From a virus, in the IMG/VR virus record IMGVR_UViG_3300027714_000068, positions 1-31,403 of that record: a DNA stretch of 31,403 bases, one strand, 5' to 3'. Made by a program: the position numbers and the translations under genes. Of the stretch, positions 2,485-27,942 are shown piece after piece. Position 1 is the stretch's first letter; every line of letters begins with the position of its first letter. The notes below the pieces were generated by a model. It saw only the letters and a program-made list of their open reading frames with translations, did not search any database and had not been told where the DNA came from.

Positions 2485-2707
2485 AGAGTTGATTAAAGTA
2501 GCTAAAGAAGCTATTGTCACTGACTCTGAAGATGACTTAACAGCTGATAAACTTAAGAATGCCGCAGCATCTAAAAAACTAGCTATATTTGACGCATTTG
2601 AGATACTTAACAGAATTGAAGAAGAAGAAAACTTGCTTGAGGGTAAAACACCTGAAAAGGCAGAGGAAAAAACTTTTAAAGGATTCGCAGAAGGTAGATC
2701 TAAATAA
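2429..2707 (+). CDS. Probable terminase small subunit
   Basis: 92 aa, almost entirely helical and strongly charged. It opens 'MNIKETKRSIIQAGHKAVEE', has a central 'DLTADKLKNAAASKKLAIFDAFEIL' helix and ends '..FKGFAEGRSK'. It lies immediately upstream of the large terminase, sharing one base with it (2707), the classic small/large terminase order. Small terminase subunits recognise phage DNA and regulate the large subunit. No helix-turn-helix is obvious, so the call rests on position, size and recollection of similar sequences in marine phages. The start codon lies 56 bases inside the upstream gene and is the only Met in the protein, so the overlap is forced unless a non-ATG start is used. Confidence 0.6.
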   Translation: MNIKETKRSIIQAGHKAVEELIKVAKEAIVTDSEDDLTADKLKNAAASKKLAIFDAFEILNRIEEEENLLEGKTPEKAEEKTFKGFAEGRSK

Positions 2708-4925: not shown

Positions 4926-7331
4926 ATGGCAGAGTCTGGCATTAAAAATTATTTTCCAAGTCAAACCGTAAGTGACGCTGAAAAGCTAAGCTATGAGTAT
5001 GGGTTAAAAGTTGGTAAAGCAATTGGACAAGAATGGTTTAATAACAACAGGGGTTCTAGTAAACACAGAACTGGGCAAAATAATTTTCATAACTTAAGGT
5101 TGTACGCTAGAGGCGAACAGTCTACTCAAAAATATAAGGATGAGTTATCTATAAACGGTGATTTGTCCTATTTAAATTTAGATTGGAAACCAGTTCCAAT
5201 TATACCTAAATTTGTGGATATAGTTGTAAATGGTATTGCCGAAAGGACATACGACATAAAGGCTTACTCACAAGACCCGTTTGGAGTAGCTAAGAGAACA
5301 GAATACATGGAGTCCATGTTAGGAGATATGGAAACACAAGAGATGGCTGATTTTGCGATGAAATCGTTTCAAATAAATCTCCTTGAAAACGATAAAAACT
5401 CTTTACCAGAGACAGAAGAAGAACTAAGTCTACACATGCAAATGACTTACAAGCAGTCGGTTGAGATAGCTGAGGAACAAGCTTTAAACGTTTTGTTTGA
5501 AGGTAGTAATTACGAGTTAATCAAGAAGAGGTTTTACTATGATTTAGCCGTTCTCGGTATCGGAGCTACTAAAACAACATTCAACACGTCGGAGGGTGTT
5601 GTTATTGATTATGTTGATCCAGCCAACTTAGTGTATTCCCATACTGATTCCCCTTATTTTGACGACATATATTATGTGGGTGAGGTAAAAACCATCCCGG
5701 TAAATGAACTCGCTAAACAGTTTCCTCACTTAACAGAGAGTGATCTTGAGGAGATAATGAGTAGTAAGTCAACACAATCGTCCTACAAGACCAACGAGGG
5801 AGATAACAATATGATTCAAGTCTTATACTTTAATTACAAGACTTATATGAACGAGGTATACAAAATGAAAGAAACCGCTAGTGGTGCTGATAAGGTTATA
5901 CCTAAAGATGATTCTTTTAACCCTCCAGAAGGGAAAGAAGGGGAATATAATAAAATGATGAGATCTATAGAGTGCTTATATGACGGGGCCATGATTGTCG
6001 GTACTGATAGATTGCTAAAGTGGGAGATGGCAAGAAACATGATGAGGCCAAAAAGTGATTTCACTAAGGTAAGAATGAATTACTCTATAGTCGCGCCTAG
6101 AATGTACAATGGTAAAATAGAATCATTAGTCAGTAGGATAACTGGTTTTGCCGACATGATTCAGTTAACTCATTTAAAGCTTCAACAGGTGTTATCAAGA
6201 ATGGTTCCTGATGGGGTTTACTTAGATGCTGATGGTTTAGCTGAAATTGATTTAGGTAATGGGACAAATTATAGCCCACAAGAAGCTTTGAACATGTTCT
6301 TCCAGACGGGTTCTGTTATTGGTAGGAGCTTTACCTCGGATGGTGATATGAATCCAGGTAAAATCCCAATTCAGGAACTTACATCTGGATCTGGTGGAAA
6401 TAAAATGCAAGCCCTTATAGGTAACTACAACTACTACATGCAAATGATAAGGGACGCTACTGGTCTTAATGAAGCGAGAGATGGTAGTACTCCAGATAAG
6501 AATGCTTTGGTAGGGGTTCAAAAACTTGCCGCAGCAAATTCTAATACGGCTACTAGACACATATTGCAAGCTGGGTTATATTTGACCGCATCTACAGCTG
6601 AGTGTTTATCACTTAGAATATCTGACATTATCGAACACTCACCAACTAAAGACGCTTTTATCCAAGCTATAGGCGCTCACAACGTCGCTACAATAGAAGA
6701 GATGTCAGAGTTACATCTTTATGATTTTGGAATATTCTTAGAGTTAATGCCAGATGAAGAGGAAAAACAGATGTTAGAGAACAATATCCAAATGGCATTA
6801 CAACAAAAAAGTATAGAACTAGAAGATGCTATTGATCTACGGGACGTAAGAAATGTGAAGTTAGCTAATCAACTTTTAAAGATACGTAGAAAAAAGAAAG
6901 AAGACAAAGATAGAAAACTTCAAATGGAGAATATCCAAGCGCAAACAAAGTCTAATACAGAGTCAGCACAAGCGGCTGCTCAAGCTGAGGTTCAAAAAGA
7001 ACAAGCGTTATCACAAACCAGAGGCCAGTTAGAACAAATGAAATCTGGTTTAGAGATACAAAAGCTAACTAAGGAAGCAGAGCTTAAGAAAGAATTAATG
7101 GCGCTAGAATTTCATTTCAACATGCAACTTAGGGGAATTGAGGTTGATGGGGTGAAGGATAGAGAGAAGCAAAAGGAAGATCGTAAAGATGAAAGAACAA
7201 AGATACAAGCAACACAACAATCAGAGATGATTGAACAAAGAAATAGTGGAAAACCACCTAAAAACTTTGAGTCCGCGGGTAATGATATACTAGGTGGAGG
7301 ATTTGATTTAGGCTCGTTTGAACCTAGTTAG
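4926..7331 (+). CDS. Portal protein
   Basis: 801 aa. The dodecameric portal forms the DNA channel at one head vertex and docks the terminase. Evidence: its place between terminase and scaffold; an N-terminal body with an 'NLRLYARGEQ' helix and a 'WKPVPIIPKFVDIVVNGIAER' stretch typical of portal wing/stem regions; and 'VIDYVDPANLVYSHTDSPYFDD', the conserved 'v.P.nv.yd...d.f.D' portal element. A long charged helical tail (about residues 614-770, rich in Gln, Lys and Glu) is a likely coiled coil, corresponding to the portal barrel or an inward extension. The last 21 residues include 'FESAGND' (781-787), which recurs in the scaffold as 'FDSAGND'. The stop is TAG. Confidence 0.85.
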   Translation: MAESGIKNYFPSQTVSDAEKLSYEYGLKVGKAIGQEWFNNNRGSSKHRTGQNNFHNLRLYARGEQSTQKYKDELSINGDLSYLNLDWKPVPIIPKFVDIVVNGIAERTYDIKAYSQDPFGVAKRTEYMESMLGDMETQEMADFAMKSFQINLLENDKNSLPETEEELSLHMQMTYKQSVEIAEEQALNVLFEGSNYELIKKRFYYDLAVLGIGATKTTFNTSEGVVIDYVDPANLVYSHTDSPYFDDIYYVGEVKTIPVNELAKQFPHLTESDLEEIMSSKSTQSSYKTNEGDNNMIQVLYFNYKTYMNEVYKMKETASGADKVIPKDDSFNPPEGKEGEYNKMMRSIECLYDGAMIVGTDRLLKWEMARNMMRPKSDFTKVRMNYSIVAPRMYNGKIESLVSRITGFADMIQLTHLKLQQVLSRMVPDGVYLDADGLAEIDLGNGTNYSPQEALNMFFQTGSVIGRSFTSDGDMNPGKIPIQELTSGSGGNKMQALIGNYNYYMQMIRDATGLNEARDGSTPDKNALVGVQKLAAANSNTATRHILQAGLYLTASTAECLSLRISDIIEHSPTKDAFIQAIGAHNVATIEEMSELHLYDFGIFLELMPDEEEKQMLENNIQMALQQKSIELEDAIDLRDVRNVKLANQLLKIRRKKKEDKDRKLQMENIQAQTKSNTESAQAAAQAEVQKEQALSQTRGQLEQMKSGLEIQKLTKEAELKKELMALEFHFNMQLRGIEVDGVKDREKQKEDRKDERTKIQATQQSEMIEQRNSGKPPKNFESAGNDILGGGFDLGSFEPS

Positions 7332-13261: not shown

Positions 13262-16200
13262 ATGCCAGAAATCAAGCATAATTTTACCGGTGGTAAGATG
13301 AATAAGGATCTCGACGAGAGACTTGTTCCCAATGGAGAATATAGAGACGCAATGAACATAGAGGTATTATCATCAGAGGGATCTGCTGTTGGTACTGTAC
13401 AGAACTTACTTGGCAATGATTATGGTTGTAATACTGGTGGTGCCGTTGGCTTAGGGTACACTGTGGGGTCTATTTCTGACGAACGAAATGACACGCTTTA
13501 CTGGTTTACCACTGATTCAGTTGCCGGTCAATCATCACTAGCGCCTGCTACTCTTTTGGAGGGGCTTGATAGCAATGATTTAGGCGTAGATGATATTTTA
13601 AATCCTATTGGAGGAGCTCACAGTCTTTATGCTGCTAACGGTGATGTAACTGATACTATCTTCCCCTTTAAAGACACAATAAGACGGAAAAAGCTTGATC
13701 AGTGTAGGGATGTCTTTGTTGATGTTTATGGGTTTATAACTCTTGTGCCAGACGGAAATCCTTCTGGAAGCACTTCTATGATTATGAATCTCTCTGATGA
13801 AGTGTTGCAGATGGTTAAAGAGGATTGGTTGGTGATGGGTGTAAATAGTAGCGGAGTGGTTTCAAACACTACCTCTGTTACCGGGCAAGACTATTTAGCG
13901 GGAACTCCTTTCACAGTAAATTATGACCCTGGTTATCAAACGTATGGTGGTTTTACGAGTGGAACGGTACATCTCAGCACGTTAGGAACGGGAGGGATGG
14001 GGGCAAATGATCCGATCACCTTTAGCTTATCACAATATCCAAATATTATTTATTTACCAGAAAATGCCTTTAGTCAAAACACGGGTGGTTTTAGTGGAAA
14101 CCCTCCACCTGGGGCTGAAATAACAATAAGTAATAATAGTGGAGACATCACTCTCCCAAACACAACGGTTGTTAGTTCATCGGTTGTAAGCATAGAATAT
14201 TATTCTGGTTTTGGAGAATTTCTAGTAGAAGTAGAACTTAGTTCGCCTTTCATTGGTAGCTTCTACGCTGATTGGAATTCACAAGCTGGTCCTCTTTTAA
14301 CCATTCCAGGTGGAACGCCTTGGGTTAATACTGGACTTGTTTACGGTAGCGGTTCCAGCTCTGCGACCCAAACAAATTTACTATCTGGTAGTCTTAGTGC
14401 TGGGGTTAGTTACCAAGCGGAATACGATACGGGTGTTACTAGATCAGATATAACTATCTCTGCTAGCTTTAATCTTGTAGATGATTGGAGTGTAGATGAC
14501 GTTGTTAAACCTACTTACTTATACCCTAGCGGAGGATGTATTGATTCAATCACTACTGACGCAAACGGTGATTACAGCGTGGTGATAAATGATTGTAGTG
14601 GTACTGTTATCTTCCCAGCGCAAGCAAGTGCTCATGTGAACATGTCGGATGGTTATCTGTTGGTGGAGATGGATGAGGTAGGGTCGATATACGTTGAAGA
14701 TTCGATTGATATGGGCGACGTGACCGCGCTCGTGTTTTCATCCCCCACCGAAAGGGTTTTAAGATTTGATTCGGGCAAACCAATTACCGGAATAAACATT
14801 ATTGATGACATGTTGTTTTGGACGGACGGTTACACGGAGCCTAAGAAGATAAATATATCACGTAGCATGAGGGGTACGGATGTTTCGGGACAAAGACACA
14901 CTAGACTTGTTAATGAAGATTTAGGAGTGGGATTAGATATTCCAGGACCTAACCTAGACGTATTGATAGCGGAAGAGCATGTAACGGTTATTAAGAAGTC
15001 ACCTCTAGCTCCAATGGGATTAGAATTTAGTACCGGTAGGAACGATAATTGGTCACAGTCCGCACAGATGCAAATTTCAAATGATACAAACGCTAACCAG
15101 TCGTCTTTTACACATAGTAGTGAGAGTAACGGGATCTACGACTTCTCGTCGCTCAAAGCTGGTGACTCCTTTCGGGTAGCAGTTTCTCAAGATGATGATG
15201 ATAATACAAATTTCACCTTGAGGGATTTAAAAGGGGCGAAGTGGACAGAGGGCACGGAGGTTGTTCTTAGAGAATACAACACCGAGGGTGAAGTATTGAT
15301 ACCGGTTAGAAACCCCAGGATAAAAGGGCGCATAGGTGGTTGGAGTGGTAATAGTTTTAAGGCTACAGATAACAATCCAGCACAGTTTGAGGTTGTAATT
15401 GAGTTCATGGAGGATGACATACCGAGCGCTGGGGATAGTGGGACGAGAAAGTTTGTTATAGATATTCTTGACCCCTCAGAAAACGTGTTTGAATTTAAGT
15501 TTCCTAGATTTTCTTATAGATATAAATACGAAGACGGGGAATACTCCACGTTTGCACCTTTTACAGAGGTAGCGTTTCTACCTGGAAACTTCGAATTCCA
15601 TCCTAAAGAAGGTTACAATCTAGGGATGACAAACTCTATAAAATCCCTGACCTTAAGAAATTTTAATGGAGAGGCAACACCTCCTGATGTGGTTAGTATT
15701 GATCTGCTATATAAAGATGATCATTCAACCAACATATATGTAGTGGACACTATAAGGCCAAAAGACGAGATTACTCCCAACCCGTGGAATGAGAATTCTT
15801 ACACTGTGACCAGTGATATCATACACAGGGTTTTACCATCAAACCAACTATTGCGCTCTTGGGACGCCGTCCCTAAAACAGCCTTGGCACAAGAGGTTGT
15901 GGGTAATAGACTAGTGTATGGTAATTATAAGCAGGGGTATAATTTAAAAAACAATGACGTTGACATCTACCCAAAGTTCATACACGAACTAACTACTATT
16001 AACAGTGACGTTAAGTCTATAAAATCACTAAGAGAGTATCAACTAGGAGTTGTTTTTGTAGATAAGTTTGGTAGAGAAACCCCCGTAATAACCAATCAAT
16101 CCGCAAGTTTTAAAGTAGACAAAGCAAGTGCTAAGCATAAAAATAAGATAAACGTTTCCTTTCAAGAAACCGCTAACGGAGGGAGTGGCGCGCCATCTGG

Positions 16201-19200
16201 CATGGATTTCTTTAAGTTCTATATAAAAGAAACCTCGGGCGAGTACTACAACATGGCAATGGATCGTTGGTATGACGCTGAAGACGGTGGTGTTTGGCTA
16301 TCATTTGCCTCCTCTGATAGAAATAAAATAGACATTGATACTTTTCTAATATTAAAAAAGGGGGTAGAATCTAGCAAACTAGTTGTAGATCCCGCGAGAT
16401 ATAAAGTATTGGCTATACAAAACGACGCTCCCGAATTTATCAAGATAAGTCAACACAATTGTGGTGAAATAAAGCAAATCAGAAATAACGAAAACTTATA
16501 TGAGGACGGTATCGAAAACGTTCCCATGCCTGGTAGGAATTGGTTTGCTGGAGACTTGTCTAGATTTGGTAAAACTAGTTTGAGAAGGTTAGATGAGTTG
16601 ATAATAGATCACGATATTTATGTTGACTTTTACAAGGCTGATGAGGTTAATATGAGTACACAGAAGTACAGGGTAACAAATTGCTCTAAACAAGAGGTGG
16701 ACGATGGTGATACGGTGGAGCATGGTTCGCACCAGTTCACTTTTAATATTGATGGGTATTTTGAAGATGACGTATACAGAATACTTCAAGGGCCTGATAG
16801 CTCCCCGACCGGTGTGAGTGAAAACACTGTCACCCGTTTCTACAAAGGTGTTAAAGAAGATTCTGCTAAGTTTGACGGTAAGTTTTTTGTAAAAATCCAC
16901 GCAGCTGGAAGTGCTTTTTCAACTACAATCTCAGAAGTAGATCTCGCTGAGATAGACCCTAAAGACTATACTACTCTCGCTGCTAAAAAAATATACTTCA
17001 TGGGAGGTGATTTAGCGGGTATTCACGAGGGTGATTATGGTTTTAAGGCTTTTGGAAATAATGATAGGGTTAAGAACGATATAATGTCTCTTGATCACAC
17101 TGGTGGCGTTAGTTATGATAATTTATATCTGACGGATTATGCAAACATTGCTGCTACTGCTGCAAGCATGCTTGGTGCAAAGGATATTCCTGGTGCGTTC
17201 AAGCTCAACAAGAAATTGACTAACTTGGCGCTTTGGCAGCAAGTTCCCGATAAATATCAAGCCTTTAGAGCTTATTTCAAAAATACCATTACAAACTTGT
17301 GGAATAGCCCAAATAATGACCACCGTAAGGAGGGTCTAGATACAATACCAGTACGTGAAGTTGGGGGAATTATGCAGTTGAAGGACGATTTGAATGGGTT
17401 CATTACAAATAATGAAAATTATTCAGGACACACTGTAACCATGTTTGGAATACAGGACGACTTAAAGATGAGGGGGAGAAGTTCCGAGTTTGCATATGAG
17501 GATGTGTTGTTTATTGACCAAGGACCTGTTGTTAATACAAACGGTTGGTGGAATGACGGGTGGAGAAAACATGGGTTTGGTGATACGGGTATGCGACCCG
17601 GGATAAGTAATTACAGTGATGTGGCGAGGGTAGAGCTGGGTCTTGGTCCTATTATGCCGGAAAAAGGTATTCCTTATAAAGATAAAGATTGGGCACCTAT
17701 GAGAAATTCAGGGGGTGGTTCACACTCAAAGTGGGAGTACTGGTCAAATATGTGGGATTTAAAAGATGATTCTAGAGATGTTTATAATAGCTCTGTGGAG
17801 GCGAGGGTCATGAGTAAGTTAGAGTCTGGAACTAAGTTTCGTTGGGCCGAAGATCCTAGTGGAACTATTTATACTGTATTTAAAGGCTATACTGAAGCTG
17901 CGCGTAATAGATATGAAACCAGGGGTGGATTCAAATCTTATGCTGCTGAGGCAAATCCCTGGATTAATGACCCATTCGCGGACAATTTATATTTTGATCA
18001 ATACGGACAAGCGCAATGGATGTCGGGGAAAACTGGTGGGGGGTATCTTCAAGATAGGATAAACCAGCCTTTTTATTACGCTGGAGAGAATTTCACTAGA
18101 AATAAACAGTTTTGGTGTTATCCAAGGATGAATTGGGAACCAACAATGCAGGGGATTACGGGGCCGATTGATGACGGTAGAGTGATAGATAAGTATGAAT
18201 ATAGCTCCGCTAATTATGATATTTTAGCTGTTGACGGGTCTTGGAACGATACTACTTTTGAGATTCATAAAGTGCATTTTGAGAATTCTCAAGACACGTC
18301 TGGATCGGGCTCTATACCAAGTCAAATAACAGTAGGTATGTTGTTGACACATGTCGGTGACGATGCTGTTGATGGGTTGACTGACAGTAATGGAAAATTA
18401 TTAAGAGGCGGATATTTAGTAAAAAGTATTACCCCGCCAGATAGTGGTGCTGATTATTATACGATAGAGTTTGAGGGTTACACGTCTATATATAGCAGCG
18501 GGATAGTTTCCGCGTCGGGTTGTGGCTCGTTAAACATACAACCGTGTTATGGAGAACCAGCTGACTTTAGCGGTAATAGAGCGTTAACATTTGTTCAACC
18601 AGCGATGAATGGGCTAAGTATTAACTCAGTTAAAAACGTTGGCTCACACTATAGTATATCGGGTAGGGTGATCGGGATTGGAGCTGTAGGTTATACTATG
18701 GAAGTTTTAGAGGAGATAAAAGAAAACAAAACCCTTCCAACTAACCCAGCTATATGGGAAACTGAACCTAAAGAATCTACAGATTTAGATATATACTACG
18801 AAGTGGGTGGTAAGAACCCAATCCGATTAAATGAAAAAACTATTGAAACAGCAATACCCTTAGGGTCAGAAGTGGTACTTCCTAACTCAGCAGGTGATCA
18901 CGCCAAAACTATTTTTGTGGAGAAATATTATCCGCCTGTTAGTAACACCATTGTTCTTGATGATTTTATTTGTGGAAATCAAAGTGGTGTTGATTGCGTT
19001 GGGGCTGATGGTGGTGATGTAAGTCCACTAAAACCAGGTGATAAAATCACGATTATCAAACCATCTGGAGAAAGAACTATCGTCACTATTGACGAAATTA
19101 AACCAGCTAATGAGGATTGGAGTGGTGAAGATCCACTTACTACAAGGGTGCTTAAGATAAGACGTAATTTATATAATAACAAACACATTTTAGGGTGGCA

Positions 19201-22200
19201 TAATTGCTACTCTTTTGGAAATGGGGTTGAATCTAATAGAATTAGAGATAATTTCAATTTACCATATATATCAAATGGTGTGCGAGCATCCGTGTCTTTA
19301 GAAGATTTCCCAAAAGAAGAAACAAGAAGTAGTGGTTTAATATACTCTGGTATATACAACTCAAATACTGGGGTTAACAATCTAAATCAGTTTATAATAG
19401 CTGAGAAAATTACGAAGGATGTTAATCCTACTTATGGTAGTATACAGAAGTTACACACTAGGGATTCTGACCTACTCACCTTGTGTCAAGACAAAGTGTT
19501 AAAAATACTTGCTAACAAAGACGCTGTATATAACGCTGATTCAAACCCACAGCTAATAGCGACTAAAAACGTTTTAGGGCAAACAATACCTTTTGTTGGG
19601 GAGTATGGTATATCAACTAATCCAGAATCTTTTGCGTCAGAAGCATATAGAGCTTATTTTACCGATAAAGTTAGAGGTGTTGTTATTAGATTGTCCAAAG
19701 ACGGTCTAACCCCAATATCAGACGCTGGAATGAAAGATTGGTTTAGAGATAACTTAAAACTAGGAGGGAGATTGATAGGTAGTTATGATGATAGGAAAAA
19801 CGAATACAACTTAACACTTAGAGGTGAGGTTAACAAAACAGTATCGTTTAGTGAAAGAGTTAAAGGATGGGTTAGTTTTAAATCATTTGTACCTGAGAAT
19901 GCTATTAGTTGTGCAAACGAGTACTATACGTTTAATGCTAACAACATATGGAAACATCATGTGGAGAGTTCTCCAAGAAACACGTTTTATGGTATCCACA
20001 CGCCATCTTGGTTTAATGTTTTACTCAATGACCAACCAGGTGTTGTTAAATCGTTTAAAACATTGAACTACGAGGGGTCTCAAGGGAGAATCGAGGGGCA
20101 AGCATCCTACCAAGTGTACATTCCAGGGAGTATAGATCCAAACACAGGAATAGGGATTATAAATCCAGATATACCTACCTTGCAAAGTGACGGGGAGTAC
20201 TATAACCTAGAAGGGAAAAATGGTTGGTATGTAGAAAATATTAAAACAGATTTAGAAGAGGGTAGTCTAAATGAATTTATAGAAAAAGAAGGAAAGTGGT
20301 TTAATTTTATTAAAGGTAAAGCAGATACTCAAACCACCTCAGGTACATTTTTAGGTGAGTTTGATAGTGGTGACGCGTCTTTTCAAGGGTTAGGTAGGTT
20401 AACTGGAGGTGTGTCTATAGCCAATATAAATGGGTGCACTAATCCCCTAGCATTAAACTATAATCAATTTGCTTTAGTGGATGACGGGTCTTGCGTGTTA
20501 GTGATACCTGGATGTGTAGATGCAAATGCCTTTAACTTTGACGCAAATGCTAACACTGATGATGGTTCATGTATGTATATGGGTTGCATAAACCCTAATA
20601 TGTTAAATTTTGATGCAAATGCTAATACAGATGATGGTTCTTGTATACCGTTTATCTATGGGTGTACCGATAATACTTCGTTTACAACGCAAGATTCTGA
20701 TGGAAACGTAGTTTCTTACCCACTACAGTCTAACTATAATGGAAGTGCTAACACGGATGATGGTAGTTGTATCGCAACTGTGTTGGGTTGTGTGGATACA
20801 ACTGCAACCAACTACAATGGTAATGCAAACATAGACAACGGGAGTTGTTCGTTCCCTGTATATGGTTGTGGCGACCTAGCCGCGTGTAACTACGATGCGA
20901 CGGTTACTGATCCCGATGGTTCGTGCTTATATTGTGGTAGTGCTACTGCTGATAATTACGACGCAGCTGATGCTAGCTGTCTTACAGGATGCTTGTGGTG
21001 CTTGTTTCATAATGCCTCTTTTCAAGTGACAAACCCCACAGACACTACACTAGAAGTAACATGGAGTAATCCAATTGGTGGGTCTGCTGTAGACATAACA
21101 ACGGGTGGTTGTTCTTACGTGGTTTCGTACTCTGTACAGGGGGAATCAGCTATAAACCAGGTAGCAACGACTCCTGTGCCTGGAACTAACACGTATATAA
21201 TACAAAACCTACAACAGGACACGGTATATGAAGTCTCAGCAAAATCAATTTGCAATACAACATCGTCTGATTGGAGCCCAGCGGCAACTATTCAGACGTT
21301 AATAACGGAGGTTCTTGGATGTGTGGATGCAGCCGCAATGAATTTTGACGCACAAGCAAACACAGATGATGGTACGTGTGTTGCATATATCTATGGTTGT
21401 ATGGATGCTATTGCAATAAATTACGATGCTGTGGTTAACACTGACGACGGTTCGTGTACTTATTGTGTGAACGGTTGTATGAATCCTGTAATGTTTAATT
21501 TTGACAATAACGCAACTTGTGATGATGGTAGTTGTATTGCAATAATAAATGGATGTATGGATTCAACGGCATTTAATTTTAACTCGGCAGCTAACACAGA
21601 TGATGGCTCTTGTGTAGCGATTAGTTATGGGTGTACTGACCCGGCGATGTTTAATTATGATGCTAATGCCAACACGGCTGATGGTAGTTGTGTTGTAATC
21701 ATAAGCGGGTGTACAGACGCCAACGCTTGCAACTACGACTCATCAGTGAATACTGATGATGGTTCATGTATACAATGTAATAGCAGTACCCTTATCATAA
21801 ACATGTCGGGGAATTGGAATTATGCCACGGCTGCTGGTAATTACTTAGATGGTGCAACGGCTGTTTGGAGTGTTAACTCTACACCCGACAACTCAACAGG
21901 TCATAGAATAAGATGGAGGAAAAGCAATCCAACCACTCCTTGGTCACAAGCAACCCTTTCGGGTGGCAGTGGGTCATACGGTATTGTTTCAACTTTTTTA
22001 GAAAACGTAGATTATGATTTCGCAATACAAACAGTGTGTGGTACTTGTAGTAGTGACTGGTCAGCAATAACAGTTGCTAACGCGGGAATTTACGCTGGTT
22101 GTACAGATGCGAATGCAAGTAACTACAACGCAAATGCCACTACAGACGACGGCTCTTGTACATATATTATTACCGGTTGTATGTATGGTCTTGCGGCTAA

Positions 22201-22492
22201 CTACGATCCTACCGCTACCGTGAACGACTTATCCTTATGTACTTGGGATTTTGCCACAGCGGGTCCTGGTTGTATGGATGCTACTCAGTGGAGCTATGTC
22301 GCTAACGCTACGTCTTCTGGTGGCGCGCCTTGTGAGCCATTTACTTATGGATGTACAAGTCCAACTGCTTCTAACTACAATGCTACTGTGAATACTGATG
22401 ATGGTTCTTGTATTTGGTTAGGTTGTACAGATTCAACTGCAACTAATTATGATAACACAGCGACAGTTGATGATGGTTCATGTTCATATTAA
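13262..22492 (+). CDS. Giant tail protein: nozzle/stabilisation-like body fused to a Cys-rich adhesin-like C-terminus
   Basis: 3076 aa, the largest gene here. It opens MPEIKHNFTGGKMNKDLDER followed by 'LVPNGEYRDAMNIEV', the N-terminal signature of beta-propeller tail nozzle/stabilisation proteins ('ERL.p.GEYrdA.Ni'). Propeller-like elements recur: 'ITGINIIDDMLFWTDGYTEP' (about residue 505), 'SLREYQLGVVFVDKFGRETP' (about 924), 'LLTLCQDKVLKILANKDAVY' (about 2069) and 'AYFTDKVRGVVIRLSKDG' (about 2131). From residue 2391 the protein changes character: 17 Cys-rich 21-residue-type repeats plus one degenerate copy, interrupted by two fibronectin III-like domains (about 2581-2683 and 2843-2940). In short-tailed phages the nozzle closes the tail tip, so the C-terminus would be exposed for host contact (inference). 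No signal peptide or autoprocessing motif is seen. Its codon use is less restricted than that of the capsid gene. Confidence 0.75.
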   Translation: MPEIKHNFTGGKMNKDLDERLVPNGEYRDAMNIEVLSSEGSAVGTVQNLLGNDYGCNTGGAVGLGYTVGSISDERNDTLYWFTTDSVAGQSSLAPATLLEGLDSNDLGVDDILNPIGGAHSLYAANGDVTDTIFPFKDTIRRKKLDQCRDVFVDVYGFITLVPDGNPSGSTSMIMNLSDEVLQMVKEDWLVMGVNSSGVVSNTTSVTGQDYLAGTPFTVNYDPGYQTYGGFTSGTVHLSTLGTGGMGANDPITFSLSQYPNIIYLPENAFSQNTGGFSGNPPPGAEITISNNSGDITLPNTTVVSSSVVSIEYYSGFGEFLVEVELSSPFIGSFYADWNSQAGPLLTIPGGTPWVNTGLVYGSGSSSATQTNLLSGSLSAGVSYQAEYDTGVTRSDITISASFNLVDDWSVDDVVKPTYLYPSGGCIDSITTDANGDYSVVINDCSGTVIFPAQASAHVNMSDGYLLVEMDEVGSIYVEDSIDMGDVTALVFSSPTERVLRFDSGKPITGINIIDDMLFWTDGYTEPKKINISRSMRGTDVSGQRHTRLVNEDLGVGLDIPGPNLDVLIAEEHVTVIKKSPLAPMGLEFSTGRNDNWSQSAQMQISNDTNANQSSFTHSSESNGIYDFSSLKAGDSFRVAVSQDDDDNTNFTLRDLKGAKWTEGTEVVLREYNTEGEVLIPVRNPRIKGRIGGWSGNSFKATDNNPAQFEVVIEFMEDDIPSAGDSGTRKFVIDILDPSENVFEFKFPRFSYRYKYEDGEYSTFAPFTEVAFLPGNFEFHPKEGYNLGMTNSIKSLTLRNFNGEATPPDVVSIDLLYKDDHSTNIYVVDTIRPKDEITPNPWNENSYTVTSDIIHRVLPSNQLLRSWDAVPKTALAQEVVGNRLVYGNYKQGYNLKNNDVDIYPKFIHELTTINSDVKSIKSLREYQLGVVFVDKFGRETPVITNQSASFKVDKASAKHKNKINVSFQETANGGSGAPSGMDFFKFYIKETSGEYYNMAMDRWYDAEDGGVWLSFASSDRNKIDIDTFLILKKGVESSKLVVDPARYKVLAIQNDAPEFIKISQHNCGEIKQIRNNENLYEDGIENVPMPGRNWFAGDLSRFGKTSLRRLDELIIDHDIYVDFYKADEVNMSTQKYRVTNCSKQEVDDGDTVEHGSHQFTFNIDGYFEDDVYRILQGPDSSPTGVSENTVTRFYKGVKEDSAKFDGKFFVKIHAAGSAFSTTISEVDLAEIDPKDYTTLAAKKIYFMGGDLAGIHEGDYGFKAFGNNDRVKNDIMSLDHTGGVSYDNLYLTDYANIAATAASMLGAKDIPGAFKLNKKLTNLALWQQVPDKYQAFRAYFKNTITNLWNSPNNDHRKEGLDTIPVREVGGIMQLKDDLNGFITNNENYSGHTVTMFGIQDDLKMRGRSSEFAYEDVLFIDQGPVVNTNGWWNDGWRKHGFGDTGMRPGISNYSDVARVELGLGPIMPEKGIPYKDKDWAPMRNSGGGSHSKWEYWSNMWDLKDDSRDVYNSSVEARVMSKLESGTKFRWAEDPSGTIYTVFKGYTEAARNRYETRGGFKSYAAEANPWINDPFADNLYFDQYGQAQWMSGKTGGGYLQDRINQPFYYAGENFTRNKQFWCYPRMNWEPTMQGITGPIDDGRVIDKYEYSSANYDILAVDGSWNDTTFEIHKVHFENSQDTSGSGSIPSQITVGMLLTHVGDDAVDGLTDSNGKLLRGGYLVKSITPPDSGADYYTIEFEGYTSIYSSGIVSASGCGSLNIQPCYGEPADFSGNRALTFVQPAMNGLSINSVKNVGSHYSISGRVIGIGAVGYTMEVLEEIKENKTLPTNPAIWETEPKESTDLDIYYEVGGKNPIRLNEKTIETAIPLGSEVVLPNSAGDHAKTIFVEKYYPPVSNTIVLDDFICGNQSGVDCVGADGGDVSPLKPGDKITIIKPSGERTIVTIDEIKPANEDWSGEDPLTTRVLKIRRNLYNNKHILGWHNCYSFGNGVESNRIRDNFNLPYISNGVRASVSLEDFPKEETRSSGLIYSGIYNSNTGVNNLNQFIIAEKITKDVNPTYGSIQKLHTRDSDLLTLCQDKVLKILANKDAVYNADSNPQLIATKNVLGQTIPFVGEYGISTNPESFASEAYRAYFTDKVRGVVIRLSKDGLTPISDAGMKDWFRDNLKLGGRLIGSYDDRKNEYNLTLRGEVNKTVSFSERVKGWVSFKSFVPENAISCANEYYTFNANNIWKHHVESSPRNTFYGIHTPSWFNVLLNDQPGVVKSFKTLNYEGSQGRIEGQASYQVYIPGSIDPNTGIGIINPDIPTLQSDGEYYNLEGKNGWYVENIKTDLEEGSLNEFIEKEGKWFNFIKGKADTQTTSGTFLGEFDSGDASFQGLGRLTGGVSIANINGCTNPLALNYNQFALVDDGSCVLVIPGCVDANAFNFDANANTDDGSCMYMGCINPNMLNFDANANTDDGSCIPFIYGCTDNTSFTTQDSDGNVVSYPLQSNYNGSANTDDGSCIATVLGCVDTTATNYNGNANIDNGSCSFPVYGCGDLAACNYDATVTDPDGSCLYCGSATADNYDAADASCLTGCLWCLFHNASFQVTNPTDTTLEVTWSNPIGGSAVDITTGGCSYVVSYSVQGESAINQVATTPVPGTNTYIIQNLQQDTVYEVSAKSICNTTSSDWSPAATIQTLITEVLGCVDAAAMNFDAQANTDDGTCVAYIYGCMDAIAINYDAVVNTDDGSCTYCVNGCMNPVMFNFDNNATCDDGSCIAIINGCMDSTAFNFNSAANTDDGSCVAISYGCTDPAMFNYDANANTADGSCVVIISGCTDANACNYDSSVNTDDGSCIQCNSSTLIINMSGNWNYATAAGNYLDGATAVWSVNSTPDNSTGHRIRWRKSNPTTPWSQATLSGGSGSYGIVSTFLENVDYDFAIQTVCGTCSSDWSAITVANAGIYAGCTDANASNYNANATTDDGSCTYIITGCMYGLAANYDPTATVNDLSLCTWDFATAGPGCMDATQWSYVANATSSGGAPCEPFTYGCTSPTASNYNATVNTDDGSCIWLGCTDSTATNYDNTATVDDGSCSY
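20432..22489 (+). repeat. Cys-rich GC...DGSC repeat array with two FN3-like inserts
   Basis: Encodes residues 2391-3076 of the giant tail protein. The unit is G-C-x-[DN]-x5-N-[YF]-[ND]-x3-[AV]-[NT]-x-[DN]-[DN]-G-[ST]-C, about 21 residues. I count seven units before the first FN3-like insert (the fourth carries an extra ~16 residues, the seventh is degenerate and lacks the leading GC), six between the inserts (from residue 2686) and five after the second (from residue 2946); the last ends two residues before the stop. The second and third units share almost identical DNA in their second halves (recent duplication); the others have diverged. Each unit has two Cys and several Asp/Asn, suggesting disulfide and perhaps calcium stabilisation (inference). 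Confidence 0.9.
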
Positions 22493-22504
22493 TAAATAAT
22501 AACT

Positions 22505-22891
22505 ATGCAAATAATAATTTTACCGTTTAGCGGATCTATTAATACTAGTCTTCAGGTGGGGGATTCCGTATACTATGACTCAGTAGGAACCGTGCCGAAT
22601 AGTGGGTTTTTAACCTCAGGTTCTCACGTGACATTTCTTGGAACAGTAACAACTATAGACTACGAGGATCTTACGGTGGCGGTGGTGTTCGATGATAACA
22701 GGTTTTCACCACACACGTCATTACAGCTCCCCGTGGGTGGTGGGAGTAGCTTTATTATGTTTGGAAAAAACAAAGCGGTTAATTCTTCTAGTTTAACAGG
22801 TTATTATGCGGACGTGAAATTTATAAATTACAGAACAGATGCGGTTGAGTTGTTCTCGGTTGGTTCGGAAGTCTCAGAAAGCAGCAAATAA
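22505..22891 (+). CDS. Small conserved virion-like protein, unknown function
   Basis: 128 aa, beta-rich. The first half, 'LQVGDSVYYDSVGTVPNSGF' and 'HVTFLGTVTTI', resembles a small beta barrel. The C-terminal half, 'FIMFGKNKAVNSSSLTGYYA' followed by 'DVKFINYRTDAVELFSVGSE' and ending 'SESSK', is a signature I recall from many marine phage structural modules, where the protein has no known function. It has no Cys, membrane segment or catalytic motif. Its place between the tail tip and the fibre suggests a minor virion component or a fibre/tail attachment part (inference). The start is preceded by an AT-rich gap of 12 bases and the next gene follows after 16. Confidence 0.55.
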   Translation: MQIIILPFSGSINTSLQVGDSVYYDSVGTVPNSGFLTSGSHVTFLGTVTTIDYEDLTVAVVFDDNRFSPHTSLQLPVGGGSSFIMFGKNKAVNSSSLTGYYADVKFINYRTDAVELFSVGSEVSESSK

Positions 22892-22907: not shown

Positions 22908-24668
22908 ATGACAAATAAGATCATAAACAATTTTGATATAGACTTAAGTGATATTGCTGCCAAAGGAGGGTTTAGAGAATTTAATATAAACGGAGACATA
23001 GATGCGGGCTTTAAGCTTGAGGTCAAAAATAGCAGTGGGGAGTATTATAATTTTACCACCCGAGCTTTTCAGGTAGCCCCAACTAGATTAAGCGGTAAAG
23101 GAAACATTTATAATAATGGTGTACTATTTCCCAGCAATACCAGTATAGTACAATACGATATTTATCTATGGGCTGACCCAGGGGTAAAACACGCTAGTCA
23201 CAATGAGGTGAGATTTGAGGATGGTAGTGTTGATATAAATTCATCCACAGGCTCTAACTCCTTACTATTGCAAAAGGTTATATACCAATACCCGGACTTA
23301 GCTCTAACCCTGAGCACTAACTCACCACGGGGTACTGTCGAGGTTGGTTCTCAGGTTAACGGTGGATTGACGGTTTCTAGAGGAGTAACTTCAAAAAAAA
23401 CACCTTTTGAAATATCTTGTAGTGTCACTACCGCTGCTAAATCATACCATATCATTAGGCAACCAACATCTAATGATGTTATATCTTTTGTAGAACCAGT
23501 CATAGGGTCTGCTCCAATTGACTTACCAGGAGAAAATATATACCCAACGGCTACAGCTGCTTTTACCGGTGATGATGTTAACGGCGCGGTAACTAGTGGT
23601 AGTGTGGTTAGAATGGATAACACTGACCTATCGGCTGTTATTAACGTTGGAGACAAGATAACAACTCCAGTTACAACAGATACTGTTGATGGTGCTGTTA
23701 GTAGTGGTGTTAAAGTAGTTATGGATAATAACGTTGCGGGTAAAATGGCTGTTGGCGATAGAATAACGTCACTAAGCGTTTCTTTGGCTAATGACGCTAA
23801 TTTTGCTAAAGAAATAATAACTGTTGCAGCGCTAAATCCAGATGGTGATAACGTTAAAGAGTTTTCAATGTCAGAGGCTGCTGCTATAGCAGATAACGCA
23901 GTCTTTACTTTTAGTTCTAAGGTTAATAGAAGTACAACAACAGTTACAGTCGTTGAAACTAGTGGTACAGCCACTGATTTCACAATGTCTCAAGCAATTC
24001 AATTTCTCGACAACGCTCCTTTAACTTTTTCGCCTAGAATGAATTCTAGCTGGCCAATAAATAATTATGCTAACATTATAGGGGAAGGCATGATTGTGGT
24101 TCCGACCACTAAAGTCCCAGGTGGCATATCGGTGTCGGATACCACGGGTCTTACCCCAACAATCACAAGAGGCCTGACCACGGCTCAAGCAGGTAGTATT
24201 ATCTTTAGTAGCCAACAAGTTGTTGATATCGCCGGTGACACACTGAAGATTGGAGGTTATGGAGAATCTGCCATATTTGATTTGCATGGTTATCGCGTTA
24301 AGTTTAGTGATCTAGCAATCGCACTAACACCAATTACTACTACTACTACAGCTGCATCAGCCGGCGGTTCTAGCACTAGTGTTGTTGTTGCCTCAAGAAA
24401 CGGTATATTAGATGACATTAGTACTGTTAGTGGTATAGGTATAAATCCAGCTGTAGTAGACCCAACTGTTGCTAGTGGGGCCGGTGCTGTTAGTGGAGCT
24501 GGAACCATTGTTCTTAGTGCAGTGCAAACCCTAGAAAATGGTATAACATTAACGTTTACGGGTGCTGGACAAAAAGCAACTATAACTGGTAACGTAGAGG
24601 TGTTAGAAACCGGTACAGCTGATCAAACCCTAAGTTTTGATGTAGAAAGACTCCTTTCTATAGCGTAG
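22908..24668 (+). CDS. Modular beta-rich fibre/virion surface protein
   Basis: 586 aa. The N-terminal ~220 residues form a distinctive domain ('INNFDIDLSDIAAKGGFREF', 'NGVLFPSNTSIVQYDIYLWA') that probably anchors it to the particle. The rest is built from repeated beta units: D-x-V-[ND]-G-A-V-[TS]-S-G-x-x-V-x-M-D-N at residues 222 and 258 (36-residue spacing), each running into an [IM]-x-V-G-D-[KR]-I-T element, then '[IV]TV(A)...F(S/T)MS(E/Q)A...DNA..TFS' units at about residues 305 and 345. Such Val/Thr/Asp-rich units are common in phage fibres and surface proteins. The C-terminal part is Thr/Ala/Ser/Gly-rich ('TTTTTAASAGGSSTS'), perhaps a flexible stalk. No enzymatic or S74 chaperone domain is seen. 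A 60-base AT-rich gap follows. Confidence 0.6.
   Translation: MTNKIINNFDIDLSDIAAKGGFREFNINGDIDAGFKLEVKNSSGEYYNFTTRAFQVAPTRLSGKGNIYNNGVLFPSNTSIVQYDIYLWADPGVKHASHNEVRFEDGSVDINSSTGSNSLLLQKVIYQYPDLALTLSTNSPRGTVEVGSQVNGGLTVSRGVTSKKTPFEISCSVTTAAKSYHIIRQPTSNDVISFVEPVIGSAPIDLPGENIYPTATAAFTGDDVNGAVTSGSVVRMDNTDLSAVINVGDKITTPVTTDTVDGAVSSGVKVVMDNNVAGKMAVGDRITSLSVSLANDANFAKEIITVAALNPDGDNVKEFSMSEAAAIADNAVFTFSSKVNRSTTTVTVVETSGTATDFTMSQAIQFLDNAPLTFSPRMNSSWPINNYANIIGEGMIVVPTTKVPGGISVSDTTGLTPTITRGLTTAQAGSIIFSSQQVVDIAGDTLKIGGYGESAIFDLHGYRVKFSDLAIALTPITTTTTAASAGGSSTSVVVASRNGILDDISTVSGIGINPAVVDPTVASGAGAVSGAGTIVLSAVQTLENGITLTFTGAGQKATITGNVEVLETGTADQTLSFDVERLLSIA
23571..23786 (+). repeat. Two-copy 36-residue fibre module
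   Basis: Two adjacent 108-base units (starting 23571 and 23679) encode the same pattern (D-x-V-[ND]-G-A-V-[TS]-S-G ... V-G-D-[KR]-I-T). Codons differ at many positions (for example AACGGCGCGGTAACT against GATGGTGCTGTTAGT), so this is an old duplication kept at protein level. Confidence 0.7.
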
Positions 24669-24728: not shown

Positions 24729-25151
24729 ATGGAAGACATTACGATACGACCTATAAGGGAGGAGGATTACGTACTTATAAATAACTGGTGGGAACAAATA
24801 AAGAAAACACCACCTCCTAGAAGTTTGTTACCAGAGAATGGTTTACATGGGCTTATGGCTTGTAAAGATGGTAGACCTATAGTTTGTACTTACTTATACT
24901 TAACAAATTCCAAGTTTGGATATTGTGATTACATGATAAGTGACAGTAGTTATAAGGGAAGAGATAGATTTGAAATAGTACTAAAGTTAATGGACATGTC
25001 GATTGGTACGGCTTGGGAATTGGGTTGTGAGGATTTCTGGTTTGTAACAAAAAGTAAAGGCATGCTAAAGAGATGCAAAGCTCTTGGAGTAAAAGTTTCA
25101 GAAGATCCATATTATTTAATATGCTCTTCAAATTCAAAAAAAGAAATATAA
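24729..25151 (+). CDS. GNAT-like N-acetyltransferase
   Basis: 140 aa, close to the size of a single GNAT domain. It begins 'ITIRPIREEDYVLINNWWEQ', the usual first strand and helix, followed by 'GLMACKDGRPIVCTYLYLTN', the beta-strand pair typical of GNATs, then helices and a closing strand 'DPYYLIC'. The acetyl-CoA pyrophosphate loop (usually [QR]xxGx[GA]) appears only as 'YKGRDRFE' (75-82), so it is divergent. Substrate unknown; phage GNATs sometimes modify host or virion proteins. An acetyltransferase inside a structural module is unusual in function but recurs in marine phages (recollection). It is 2 bases from the next gene and ends in a run of seven As before its stop. Confidence 0.6.
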   Translation: MEDITIRPIREEDYVLINNWWEQIKKTPPPRSLLPENGLHGLMACKDGRPIVCTYLYLTNSKFGYCDYMISDSSYKGRDRFEIVLKLMDMSIGTAWELGCEDFWFVTKSKGMLKRCKALGVKVSEDPYYLICSSNSKKEI

Positions 25152-25153
25152 AT

Positions 25154-26110
25154 ATGGCAAATAAAAATAAAAATACAGCACCTAGTCCTTTTCACAAAGG
25201 AGGCAAAGGAGAGGGTGATAGTAAGAAAAACTGGATGGGAAGAAAATTTTCAAGTATGGGGAGTTTTCTTAATCCATTTGGAGGATTTGGTAAAGGAGAA
25301 ACATATGGCGAAGACGAATGGGGTATTAAGGCGGCAACAGAAGATGCGGACAAGTCTTTTCAAGATTTTCAAGGATTAAAAGAAGGAGCTGGTGAAAATC
25401 TATGGGCTGGCGCTAAAAACTTAATTGATATTGATGATCATTTTGGTGGTTTAGATAATCCGATGGAAGATCTTACTGTTAACAAAGAACAAGTGCAATT
25501 TCAAAAACAAATGGCCACGCAACAAAACGTCAACATGATGGATATGATGATGGCTGGGGGTGGTGGCTCTGGCGCGGCGGCAAACGCTCAAGCGCTGTCT
25601 GGTATACAATCTCAACAACGTCAACAGCTCGGTGGGCAGATTGGTCAACAAGAATCCGCTAATCAAATGGCGGCAGCATCACAGGCTTCCCAAAACCAAA
25701 TGGCACAAGCAAAAGCACTTCAACAAGCGGATATGGCACAAGATCAAGGTGCTATGGAGGCTCAGAAATTCCAGTTACAAGGAGCTGCAGACGCTAGGGA
25801 GTTACAAATTCAAATGCAACAAGCGGAATTATCTTACCTAGCAGGACTTAAAGAATCCGCTGAGGCAAATAAGGATGTAGACACGGCTGGTAAGTCTGAC
25901 CGTAGATTAAAGAAAAATATAAACAAAATAGGTGAATCTGCTAGTGGGTTAAATATATATTCTTTTGAATATAAGAACCCGGCGGATGGCATAGGATTAT
26001 TCCAAGGCGTTATGTCTGATGAAATTCCACTAGAAGCTGTTGTTGAAAGTGGTGATTGGTATGATTTAGTAAATTACAGTATGTTGGACGTAGAATTTAA
26101 ACAAATATAA
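25154..26110 (+). CDS. Internal virion protein-like, Ala/Gln-rich, with truncated S74-type C-terminus
   Basis: 318 aa from ATG 25154. An upstream in-frame ATG (25073) would add 27 residues but lies inside the acetyltransferase gene; 25154 has the TAAATATGG context also seen at 26113. The N-terminus is basic and Gly-rich ('FHKGGKGEGDSKKNWMGRKF'). Residues about 110-245 are Gln/Ala/Met-rich and helical ('MMDMMMAGGGGSGAAANAQA', 'AQDQGAMEAQKFQLQGAADA'), like the small ejection protein (T7 gp14 type). From S248, 'SDRRLKKNINKIGESASGLN' resembles the start of a peptidase S74 intramolecular chaperone, but only about 70 residues follow and the usual trimer helix is absent, so it may be a remnant or a tail anchor. 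The gene order with two larger following proteins supports an ejection trio. Confidence 0.55.
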   Translation: MANKNKNTAPSPFHKGGKGEGDSKKNWMGRKFSSMGSFLNPFGGFGKGETYGEDEWGIKAATEDADKSFQDFQGLKEGAGENLWAGAKNLIDIDDHFGGLDNPMEDLTVNKEQVQFQKQMATQQNVNMMDMMMAGGGGSGAAANAQALSGIQSQQRQQLGGQIGQQESANQMAAASQASQNQMAQAKALQQADMAQDQGAMEAQKFQLQGAADARELQIQMQQAELSYLAGLKESAEANKDVDTAGKSDRRLKKNINKIGESASGLNIYSFEYKNPADGIGLFQGVMSDEIPLEAVVESGDWYDLVNYSMLDVEFKQI

Positions 26111-26112
26111 AT

Positions 26113-27942
26113 ATGGCAGTAGTTGATCAAAACGCAATGTTCAGAGCTGGTCTTGCTAGAGGGACCACCGGAAGAAACCCACAGGTTGAACGACAGTTAG
26201 CTAGAGAAGAACGTCTAATTAATTTTGGGTACGATATAGTTGGGGGTGTAGCCCAGGAGGCTATTAAAGACGGCTTTGAGGGTATGAAGAAGTTTAGAGA
26301 CGCTAAAGAGAGTCAAACCGCGGCGATGAATCTAGCGTTGGATAAAATGCCTAAAGAGAACGTGGGGTTGCAAGATGATGTTCGTTTAATTTATGACAAC
26401 TACAGGAAAGCCGCGAGAAGATCGCGCCTAACTTTTGGTAAAAAAAGAGCAGAGGCTAAGGCTGAGATGGGTAAATATATGGGTCAAATGACGTCATTTA
26501 ACGCATACTTAGAGGCCTACGCTCATCATGCTCCAAAGTCCCAAGGAACCCTATCTGTTGCCTCCGGTGTAGCTGGAGAAAATAACAAGGGTGGATCAGT
26601 AAACATGAGTGCGGCTGCTTATGGTGATCAAATTAGGAACACTACAGAGCAAGCAAACAATGATTTAGGTATGCTACTAAATTGGGATCACGAAGAAGGT
26701 GTTATGAAAGTACTAAGAGGTGGTAAATGGATTGAAGAAGATGGTAAGCGATCGTACGTGAACATGGGTATAGAGGAAAATAAAGAGTTGAAGGAGAAAT
26801 ATAAATCGTTTAAAAAGGATTTTGAAAGTAAACAAGGGGATGCTCAGGGAGGTGCATATCCTAGTGATGCTGATCCCGAAGCATTAGCCAATGCTACTAC
26901 TCCATCATATCAAGAGTGGGCGCAGCTGCAAAACAAAGAAACACTTCGTAATGTGAAGTATTCTGACTTGAAGTTTGCTCCTCCACAAGATAGAATCTTC
27001 ATGGACGATCATCTCGCGGTTAAAAAACAGTTCAGTAAAAATGGCTACAGTGATGGTAGTTGGCACAATAAAGAAATTGAAAAAGCAGAAGCTTATCAAA
27101 AAATAGACAGTTACAATAACAATACTTTCAAGGATTTCTTCTTTGGTGGACCAGGATTTAACCACTCAAATAGGAGATTAGGCACAGGATCCCTTGCTTA
27201 CAAAATGTTAATAAGTAGAAATCACGATGATAATCCAGATAACGATTTGATTGCTCCAGATTCTGAAAATTCAACTGCAGAGTCTAACACTAGGTGGGAG
27301 GGAGCTCTAACTACGTTGAAGATGCAAGATATGAATTCAGGTACACAATACAGGAAATTTGCACAAGAAAATTTGTGGACTGAACTAGAGGATATCCGCA
27401 CCGCCGCGGGGGATGCTTATAGGAGGGATAATCCAAAGGATCCAAGTGGTGGTGGTGGTGACGGTGCGAATTATATAAGCCTTTGGGGCAATCAAATTCT
27501 AGCACCACAAACAGCAACAGAAAGAAATGATTTTGCGACAGTGCAAAACATTGCTAATGATCAACCAACAGTGATAGTTGGTAACACGAAATATGAACGC
27601 GTTAATGGTGCGGGTTATGATTACAGAGCAATAGAGGATAAGTCCGGGGGAATTTGGAAGTCAATACCACCAAAACAGAGAACATCAACAAAGAAAGAAA
27701 GTTTAATCCAGTCGGTTAGCCCTGTATACGGTGGGGTGCCCGATGGTTACTTTGGTGAATCAACTTATAAAACACCAAAGAAAACTAATGTATTTAACCC
27801 AGCAGACGGTCAAGTCACGGTTACACAAATGAAAGATGTGTTAAGATCAAGTGGTGGACCTTACAACCAAAATGCCTCCGATGAACAGATAAGAGACATG
27901 TATGAAAAATACGTTAAATCATTAATGCCACAAAATCAATAA
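26113..27942 (+). CDS. Probable internal/ejection virion protein, unknown fold
   Basis: 609 aa. The N-terminal ~170 residues are helical and charged ('VERQLAREERLINFGYDIVG', 'FGKKRAEAKAEMGKYMGQMT'). The middle is mixed with Lys/Glu-rich stretches. A Gly-run 'PSGGGGDG' (about 445-452) separates a C-terminal domain ending 'QIRDMYEKYVKSLMPQNQ'. No catalytic motif, transmembrane segment or lectin domain is seen. Size and position between a gp14-like and a very large terminal protein match the podovirus internal core order (T7 gp14-gp15-gp16), so an ejectosome role is inferred, not shown. It sits 2 bases after the preceding stop and 1 base before the next start. Confidence 0.5.
   Translation: MAVVDQNAMFRAGLARGTTGRNPQVERQLAREERLINFGYDIVGGVAQEAIKDGFEGMKKFRDAKESQTAAMNLALDKMPKENVGLQDDVRLIYDNYRKAARRSRLTFGKKRAEAKAEMGKYMGQMTSFNAYLEAYAHHAPKSQGTLSVASGVAGENNKGGSVNMSAAAYGDQIRNTTEQANNDLGMLLNWDHEEGVMKVLRGGKWIEEDGKRSYVNMGIEENKELKEKYKSFKKDFESKQGDAQGGAYPSDADPEALANATTPSYQEWAQLQNKETLRNVKYSDLKFAPPQDRIFMDDHLAVKKQFSKNGYSDGSWHNKEIEKAEAYQKIDSYNNNTFKDFFFGGPGFNHSNRRLGTGSLAYKMLISRNHDDNPDNDLIAPDSENSTAESNTRWEGALTTLKMQDMNSGTQYRKFAQENLWTELEDIRTAAGDAYRRDNPKDPSGGGGDGANYISLWGNQILAPQTATERNDFATVQNIANDQPTVIVGNTKYERVNGAGYDYRAIEDKSGGIWKSIPPKQRTSTKKESLIQSVSPVYGGVPDGYFGESTYKTPKKTNVFNPADGQVTVTQMKDVLRSSGGPYNQNASDEQIRDMYEKYVKSLMPQNQ

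Follow-up and report, generated by a model that had tools for sequence, protein, structure and literature searches.

A candidate adhesin arm fused past the conserved end of the tail muzzle in marine crAss-like phages

The tail of phicrAss001 is closed by the muzzle, a hexamer of about 1 MDa with a propeller similar to that of the T7 nozzle (PMC10172136). The published length variation among muzzles of the phicrAss001 type comes from segments inserted into IG2 and into the crass domain, the latter of which resides within the crassvirus muzzle body and has already been proposed to contact the cell (PMC10172136). The muzzle is viewed as a gatekeeper, and what triggers it to open the crAss-like tail on contact with the cell is presumed. 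Tail-region proteins with tandem domains of the Bacteroidetes type are also known in crAssphage, namely, the BACON tandem-repeat proteins, for which host binding has been proposed (PMC6949934). The domain in these proteins differs from the one described below, and they are encoded by ORFs of their own near the tail genes rather than within the muzzle (PMC6949934). Throughout, we use the term crAss-like in the wide sense.

The stretch of DNA analyzed here, which we call the window, is a linear viral metagenomic fragment of 31,403 bases. The gene order, with TerL (2707-4920) followed by the portal (4926-7331), structural genes and then the muzzle gene, is common to the window and Cellulophaga phage phi38:1. 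The muzzle gene (13262-22492, plus strand, as are all window features listed below) encodes 3076 amino acids from ATG to stop without interruption, whereas the strand opposite to it contains many stops and no open frame; a first-pass annotation had read the region as a single ORF of this length, and both its coordinates and its frame hold exactly.

The body of the protein, residues 1-2352 (13262..20317), matches the Pfam family crAss_MUZ (PF25731) in two colinear segments, residues 7-52 and 2052-2226, with a score of 51.8 bits against the curated cut-off of 27 bits, and the PHROG family phrog_14478 (virion structural) with an E value of 7e-125; the match to crAss_MUZ_C falls below the cut-off of that family. 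Homologs of the body are present in 87 records of Bacteroidetes phages, the nearest isolates being phages of Cellulophaga (e.g., phi38:1, Pervagoviridae), Flavobacterium, Maribacter and Tenacibaculum; the hosts of the named isolates with similar bodies belong to Bacteroidetes. Judging from these family matches, the body is a tail muzzle of the crAss type, that is, a tail-tip gatekeeper. The first-pass annotation had recognized a short-tail nozzle in this part of the protein; the assignment to a tail-tip nozzle stands, in the form of the crAss muzzle family (PF25731), but the body is not P22 gp10 or T7 gp12 itself, and no solved nozzle chain of either protein appears among the PDB sequence matches of the whole protein or of the A1 profile; the body is related to these nozzles only by way of the muzzle propeller, as already published (PMC10172136). 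The structural comparison proposed along with that annotation was run for residues 1780-2400, the C-terminal half of the body, for which the AlphaFold model is poor (mean pLDDT 50). The Foldseek matches of this model are mostly beta-propellers and include the phicrAss001 muzzle (7qok, probability 0.99); given the pLDDT of 50, the list lends the fold weak support, and a propeller in the body is likely.

Two of the closest known proteins differ from the window protein in length and in their C-terminal ends. phicrAss001 gp44 (PDB 7QOK) shares with it the crAss_MUZ family, the tail-tip gatekeeper assignment and the place among the tail genes, but the window body is about twice as long and is extended by an arm of about 690 amino acids that consists of DGSC repeats and FN3. 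The gp097 protein of phi38:1 (Pervagoviridae, Callevirus), annotated as a virion structural protein, has a homologous body in the same gene order, but is only 1324 amino acids long, lacks DGSC repeats and carries a different C-terminal domain (d128-type, see below). Several other records (L036, L055, L069, L071, L072 and MW202828.1, L323:5001-11021) encode the muzzle body in two ORFs, with the break upstream of the conserved end; in MW202828.1, a gene annotated as 'putative glycosidase' lies between the two parts.

The body ends with the motif EGKWFNFIKG (residues 2343-2352, 20288..20317), which recurs in the relatives, in most of them as EGKWFNYIKG. Downstream of this motif is the linker FDSGDASFQGLG (residues 2367-2378, 20360..20395), which carries QG(I/L)G and in which the Q and G of the QG pair are invariant across 43 extensions (alignment A4). 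Among the IMG/VR relatives, the DGSC repeats always lie beyond the conserved body end and never before it; an apparent case of repeats upstream of the muzzle end, in L354, is a spurious, weak second HMM match. On this evidence, the boundary between the body and the extension is real. In one relative, L068, the muzzle ends shortly past the conserved end and is followed by two separate genes that open with the window-type linker and continue into DGSC arrays. The first of these, which ends with an Lcl_C adhesin-type domain, is read in a different frame across the muzzle stop and may reflect a frameshift; the second has an independent start.

Beyond the linker, the last ~690 residues contain 13 canonical 21-residue units of the type GC...D(D)G(S/T)C, as detected by the repeat scan, with the canonical form GCxD..A.NY(D/N)..A..DDGSC; the HMM count is 16, that is, the 13 canonical units and about 3 degenerate ones. 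A degenerate DNA pattern of the unit has 9 matches in the window, all within 13262-22492, and none in 100 shuffles. The units, identified by repeat scan and HMM, form three arrays. The first (residues 2391-2555, 20432..20926) is followed by an FN3 domain (residues 2587-2676, 21020..21289; PF00041, E 1e-9 to 1e-10, with Foldseek matches to FN3), the second (residues 2686-2836, 21317..21769) consists of six repeats spaced by exactly 26 residues, and the third (residues 2946-3074, 22097..22483) reaches the stop. Between the last two arrays, a possible second FN3-like domain (residues about 2840-2940, 21779..22081) shows a weak phmmer match to FN3con (E 0.08). The six-repeat stretch is modelled at a pLDDT of about 95 as a regular rod with one cysteine pair per 26-residue repeat. 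In the Foldseek search against PDB, the repeat array has no match, and matches were obtained only for the FN3 part; an F-box/LRR match in PDB (6o60) was set aside as compositional. The separate, adhesin-like module of GC...DGSC repeats proposed in the first-pass annotation is supported by both counts and by the fixed junction, whereas of the FN3 domains for which it used the plural, one is significant and the second is suggestive only.

We compared the muzzle C-termini in 94 IMG/VR contigs, the window included, that were collected in two scans, with contigs, not species, counted once each. DGSC repeats are fused to the muzzle in 55 of the 94, including the window, so that the fusion is not peculiar to one phage; within this clade, it recurs, and its junction is fixed. 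In 16 contigs, the muzzle ends instead with a domain of about 125 residues, and 23 have neither. A homolog of this C-terminal domain of repeat-less muzzles is encoded in the window immediately after the muzzle gene as a separate 128-aa protein, which we denote d128 (22505..22891; phmmer, alignment A3). Its phmmer matches lie at the C-terminus of the muzzle ORFs of L008, L009, L023, L037, L041, L043, L050, L058, L069, L071, L072 and L075, and the C-terminus of the phi38:1 muzzle is a domain of the same type (alignment A3). The d128 domain and DGSC repeats never occur together on one muzzle, with d128 fused only where there is no array. Because phi38:1, the outgroup, has d128 fused, the simplest reading is that the d128-type domain is the original muzzle end that was displaced by the arrays. 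On the tree of the bodies, the DGSC state changes at least 7 times, with 5 changes forced by well-supported branches, counts that do not tell gain from loss.

The content of the extension varies as well: fn3 is present in 11 and Lcl_C in 3 of the 43 extensions scanned. The best BFVD matches of the model that includes the window FN3 domain and DGSC repeats are other viral proteins, among them A0A7S9SUA2 of Virus NIOZ-UU157 (UniProt, BFVD), named 'Crassvirus muzzle protein C-terminal domain-containing protein', a structural match of apparently the same build. Because of this match to a muzzle-named protein, at least one comparable fusion, apparently undescribed, seems to have been deposited already. 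In L356 (2464-10782), the same slot holds a C-terminal extension of about 1050 residues with different content and without DGSC repeats. In L042, the DGSC-bearing muzzle and d128 are separated by a 131-aa ORF (19492-19887) that is SET-domain-like by eye; the gene found between muzzle and d128 in loci of the L030 type, suspected of being a further adhesin, looks by eye like the counterpart, in a different order, of the 586-aa gene of the window.

Three genes downstream of d128 bear on the recognition function that the first-pass annotation placed in the fused region rather than on separate fibers. These encode a 586-aa tail-region protein (22908..24668), a 345-aa fiber candidate with a Peptidase_S74 (endosialidase chaperone) match (25073..26110; PF13884, 22.2 bits, cut-off 22) and a 609-aa tail-region protein (26113..27942). 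The fusion is present, but these fiber candidates are encoded next to it and vary along with the arms. The clearest case is the pair L032 and L034, which come from separate metagenomes. The two contigs have no differences in the 6 kb upstream of the muzzle and 3 in the 6,210 bases of the muzzle body, compared to 121 differences in 2,442 bases (5%) and 48 gap columns in the extension; 254 more are found in the 5,429 bases downstream of the muzzle, in the homologs of all three genes, and the large gene beyond the variable stretch is again identical over 839 residues. The substitutions in the extension show no adenine bias and are partly synonymous, for which reason a diversity-generating retroelement was rejected as their source in this pair; together with the dN/dS of about 0.43, the lack of bias favors recombination between diverged alleles, which the divergence fits, over a retroelement or strong positive selection. 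Similarly, L015 and L017 differ by 3% in the body versus 13% in the extension, whereas in L033 and L040, with a two-repeat extension, the extension is invariant and the downstream genes vary. As far as these comparisons go, the local divergence is what host-recognition loci usually show, and the long muzzle arms take part in it. At the sequence level, then, the comparisons demonstrate the homology to crAss muzzles, the fixed junction with DGSC and FN3 modules on its far side, arrays that were gained or lost repeatedly, their mutual exclusion with fused d128 and the locally elevated divergence of the extension in contigs that are otherwise nearly identical.

The DGSC repeat is widespread outside the muzzle. 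Among bacteria, it occurs mainly in marine Flavobacteriales, Crocinitomicaceae and Saprospiraceae, with additional carriers in Neomarinimicrobiota, and the repeat is found also in marine archaea and many viral ORFs. The first-pass annotation had assigned it to secreted flavobacterial proteins, and this assignment holds, with a T9SS sorting domain in 4 of the 7 bacterial DGSC proteins checked. These T9SS-secreted proteins of marine Flavobacteriales have the same repeat at a similar spacing of 24-26 residues, but they carry the sorting domain, whereas the window protein has no match to PF18962. Neither Pfam nor NCBIfam includes a curated family for the repeat, and a literature text search for DDGSC returned no relevant paper. 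One solved structure with the motif is that of perforin-2/MPEG1: residues 328-350 of PDB 6u2j match window residues 2942-2964, one GC..DDGSC unit whose pattern is almost that of the bacterial and phage repeat, with an E value of 0.002. In perforin-2, this is a single, non-tandem module of a metazoan pore-former, and the relation extends over one short motif; the authors of the structure name a truncated EGF-like domain near the GC..DDGSC copy (PMC6989145). The proposed origin of the extension in a surface protein of the host is not borne out by this distribution, which takes in Neomarinimicrobiota, marine archaea, perforin-2 and many viral ORFs; nor does repeat identity give a signal as to whether bacterial or viral repeats are the nearest kin of the window array, with no preference for bacteria. 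Two scans with back-translated extension peptides yielded no relatives because the repeat is too degenerate for this method; the degenerate DNA pattern succeeded.

Taking these observations together, the protein is probably the muzzle of a marine crAss-like podovirus that infects Bacteroidetes; an adhesin arm, swappable and fused past the conserved end, would bind the host surface. A role of the extension in host recognition would fit its variability, the FN3 and Lcl_C domains and the standalone copies. Under this scenario, arms made of disulfide-pinned DGSC rods and FN3 modules would project from the tail tip, probably six per virion, by analogy with the hexameric phicrAss001 muzzle. They would bind a structure on the surface of the host, probably jointly with the fiber proteins encoded downstream, and, once bound, would position the muzzle on the host or contribute to opening the gate through which DNA and cargo leave. 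Presence in the virion, receptor binding and coupling to gating are inferred. Because separate fiber candidates exist, the arm may be auxiliary and, against a recognition arm, the L032/L034 extension shows no sign of positive selection (dN/dS about 0.43).

Alternatively, the extension could be a passive spacer or a general sticky decoration that binds particles, mucus or polysaccharide, with specificity residing in the downstream fiber genes. The downstream genes are indeed no less variable than the extension in L032/L034 and vary alone in L033/L040; about 40% of the relatives lack the repeats; and BACON and similar immunoglobulin-like repeats, which form tail-associated arrays in crAss-like phages, have a binding role that is itself unproven (PMC6949934). 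However, recombinant-like divergence within the muzzle gene is confined to the extension, some extensions contain Lcl_C adhesin-type domains, and the arrays are not scattered but take the place of a conserved domain at a single junction; we regard this alternative as unlikely. Less probable still is that the extension is cleaved off or transiently fused, which would leave a mature muzzle of about 2380 residues and the array as a protein of its own. The L068 arrays, in separate genes with the same linker, and the bodies split into two ORFs in several relatives are compatible with such an arrangement, but the fused frame is kept in at least 50 contigs, neither a protease motif nor any known processing was found, and a frameshift might account for the boundary of the first L068 gene, although the second copy has its own start. 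Finally, in a metagenomic fragment with a repeat type common in bacteria, one has to consider that the fusion is chimeric or that assembly misjoined bacterial DNA to a phage contig; because the identical junction is found in dozens of contigs independent of one another, flanked on either side by phage structural genes, this explanation is refuted, its probability being negligible.

A broader extrapolation of the adhesin-arm reading, which we put forward tentatively and on balance doubt, is that marine crAss-like phages use the C-terminus of the muzzle as a docking slot for adhesins, in which DGSC arms displaced the ancestral C-terminal domain into a gene of its own. The arms would circulate in muzzle-fused, standalone and host-type T9SS-exported forms, and a receptor sensor would be wired covalently, in six copies, to the gate. 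In the window protein, receptor-type modules and the gate share one polypeptide, in a clade with cultured relatives; because they do, and because candidate recognition genes account for nearly all differences within natural pairs such as L032/L034, the link between recognition and gating is amenable to testing. The analysis also names a likely host-range locus for a group of uncultured marine viruses and brings to notice an uncurated cysteine-rich repeat common to marine bacteria, archaea, phages and perforin-2.

Versions of the repeat protein with T9SS export signals are encoded on some viral contigs as well. On other viral contigs, 5 of the 9 DGSC ORFs examined carry the T9SS sorting domain PF18962 and a sixth has a type IX signal of the CHU_C type; the T9SS-type ORFs have signal-peptide-like starts. 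In one relative (contig IMGVR_UViG_3300030104_002039; L376:2192-4597, minus strand, also L353), an 801-aa protein opens with a signal-peptide-like stretch and carries a DGSC-type array together with a T9SS sorting domain, and the muzzle on the same contig (L353) is in the d128-fused state. This protein aligns with the window extension at 4e-108, a score of the kind that repeats inflate; the record of a relative thus includes a complete, host-type exported version, from which the arms may derive or to which they may have passed. Elsewhere (L238:7616-11679, L239:2161-6140, L245:2212-6272 and L251:3466-8597), a gene with a signal peptide, DGSC repeats and a T9SS domain is followed by a conserved protein of 344-357 aa. 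These partner proteins have no Pfam match, and one of them that was searched for in the phage collection has no match there. They have signal-peptide-like starts and are 52-79% identical among the four viral contigs, one of which carries a terminase gene; judging from this conserved arrangement, the two genes form an apparent cassette.
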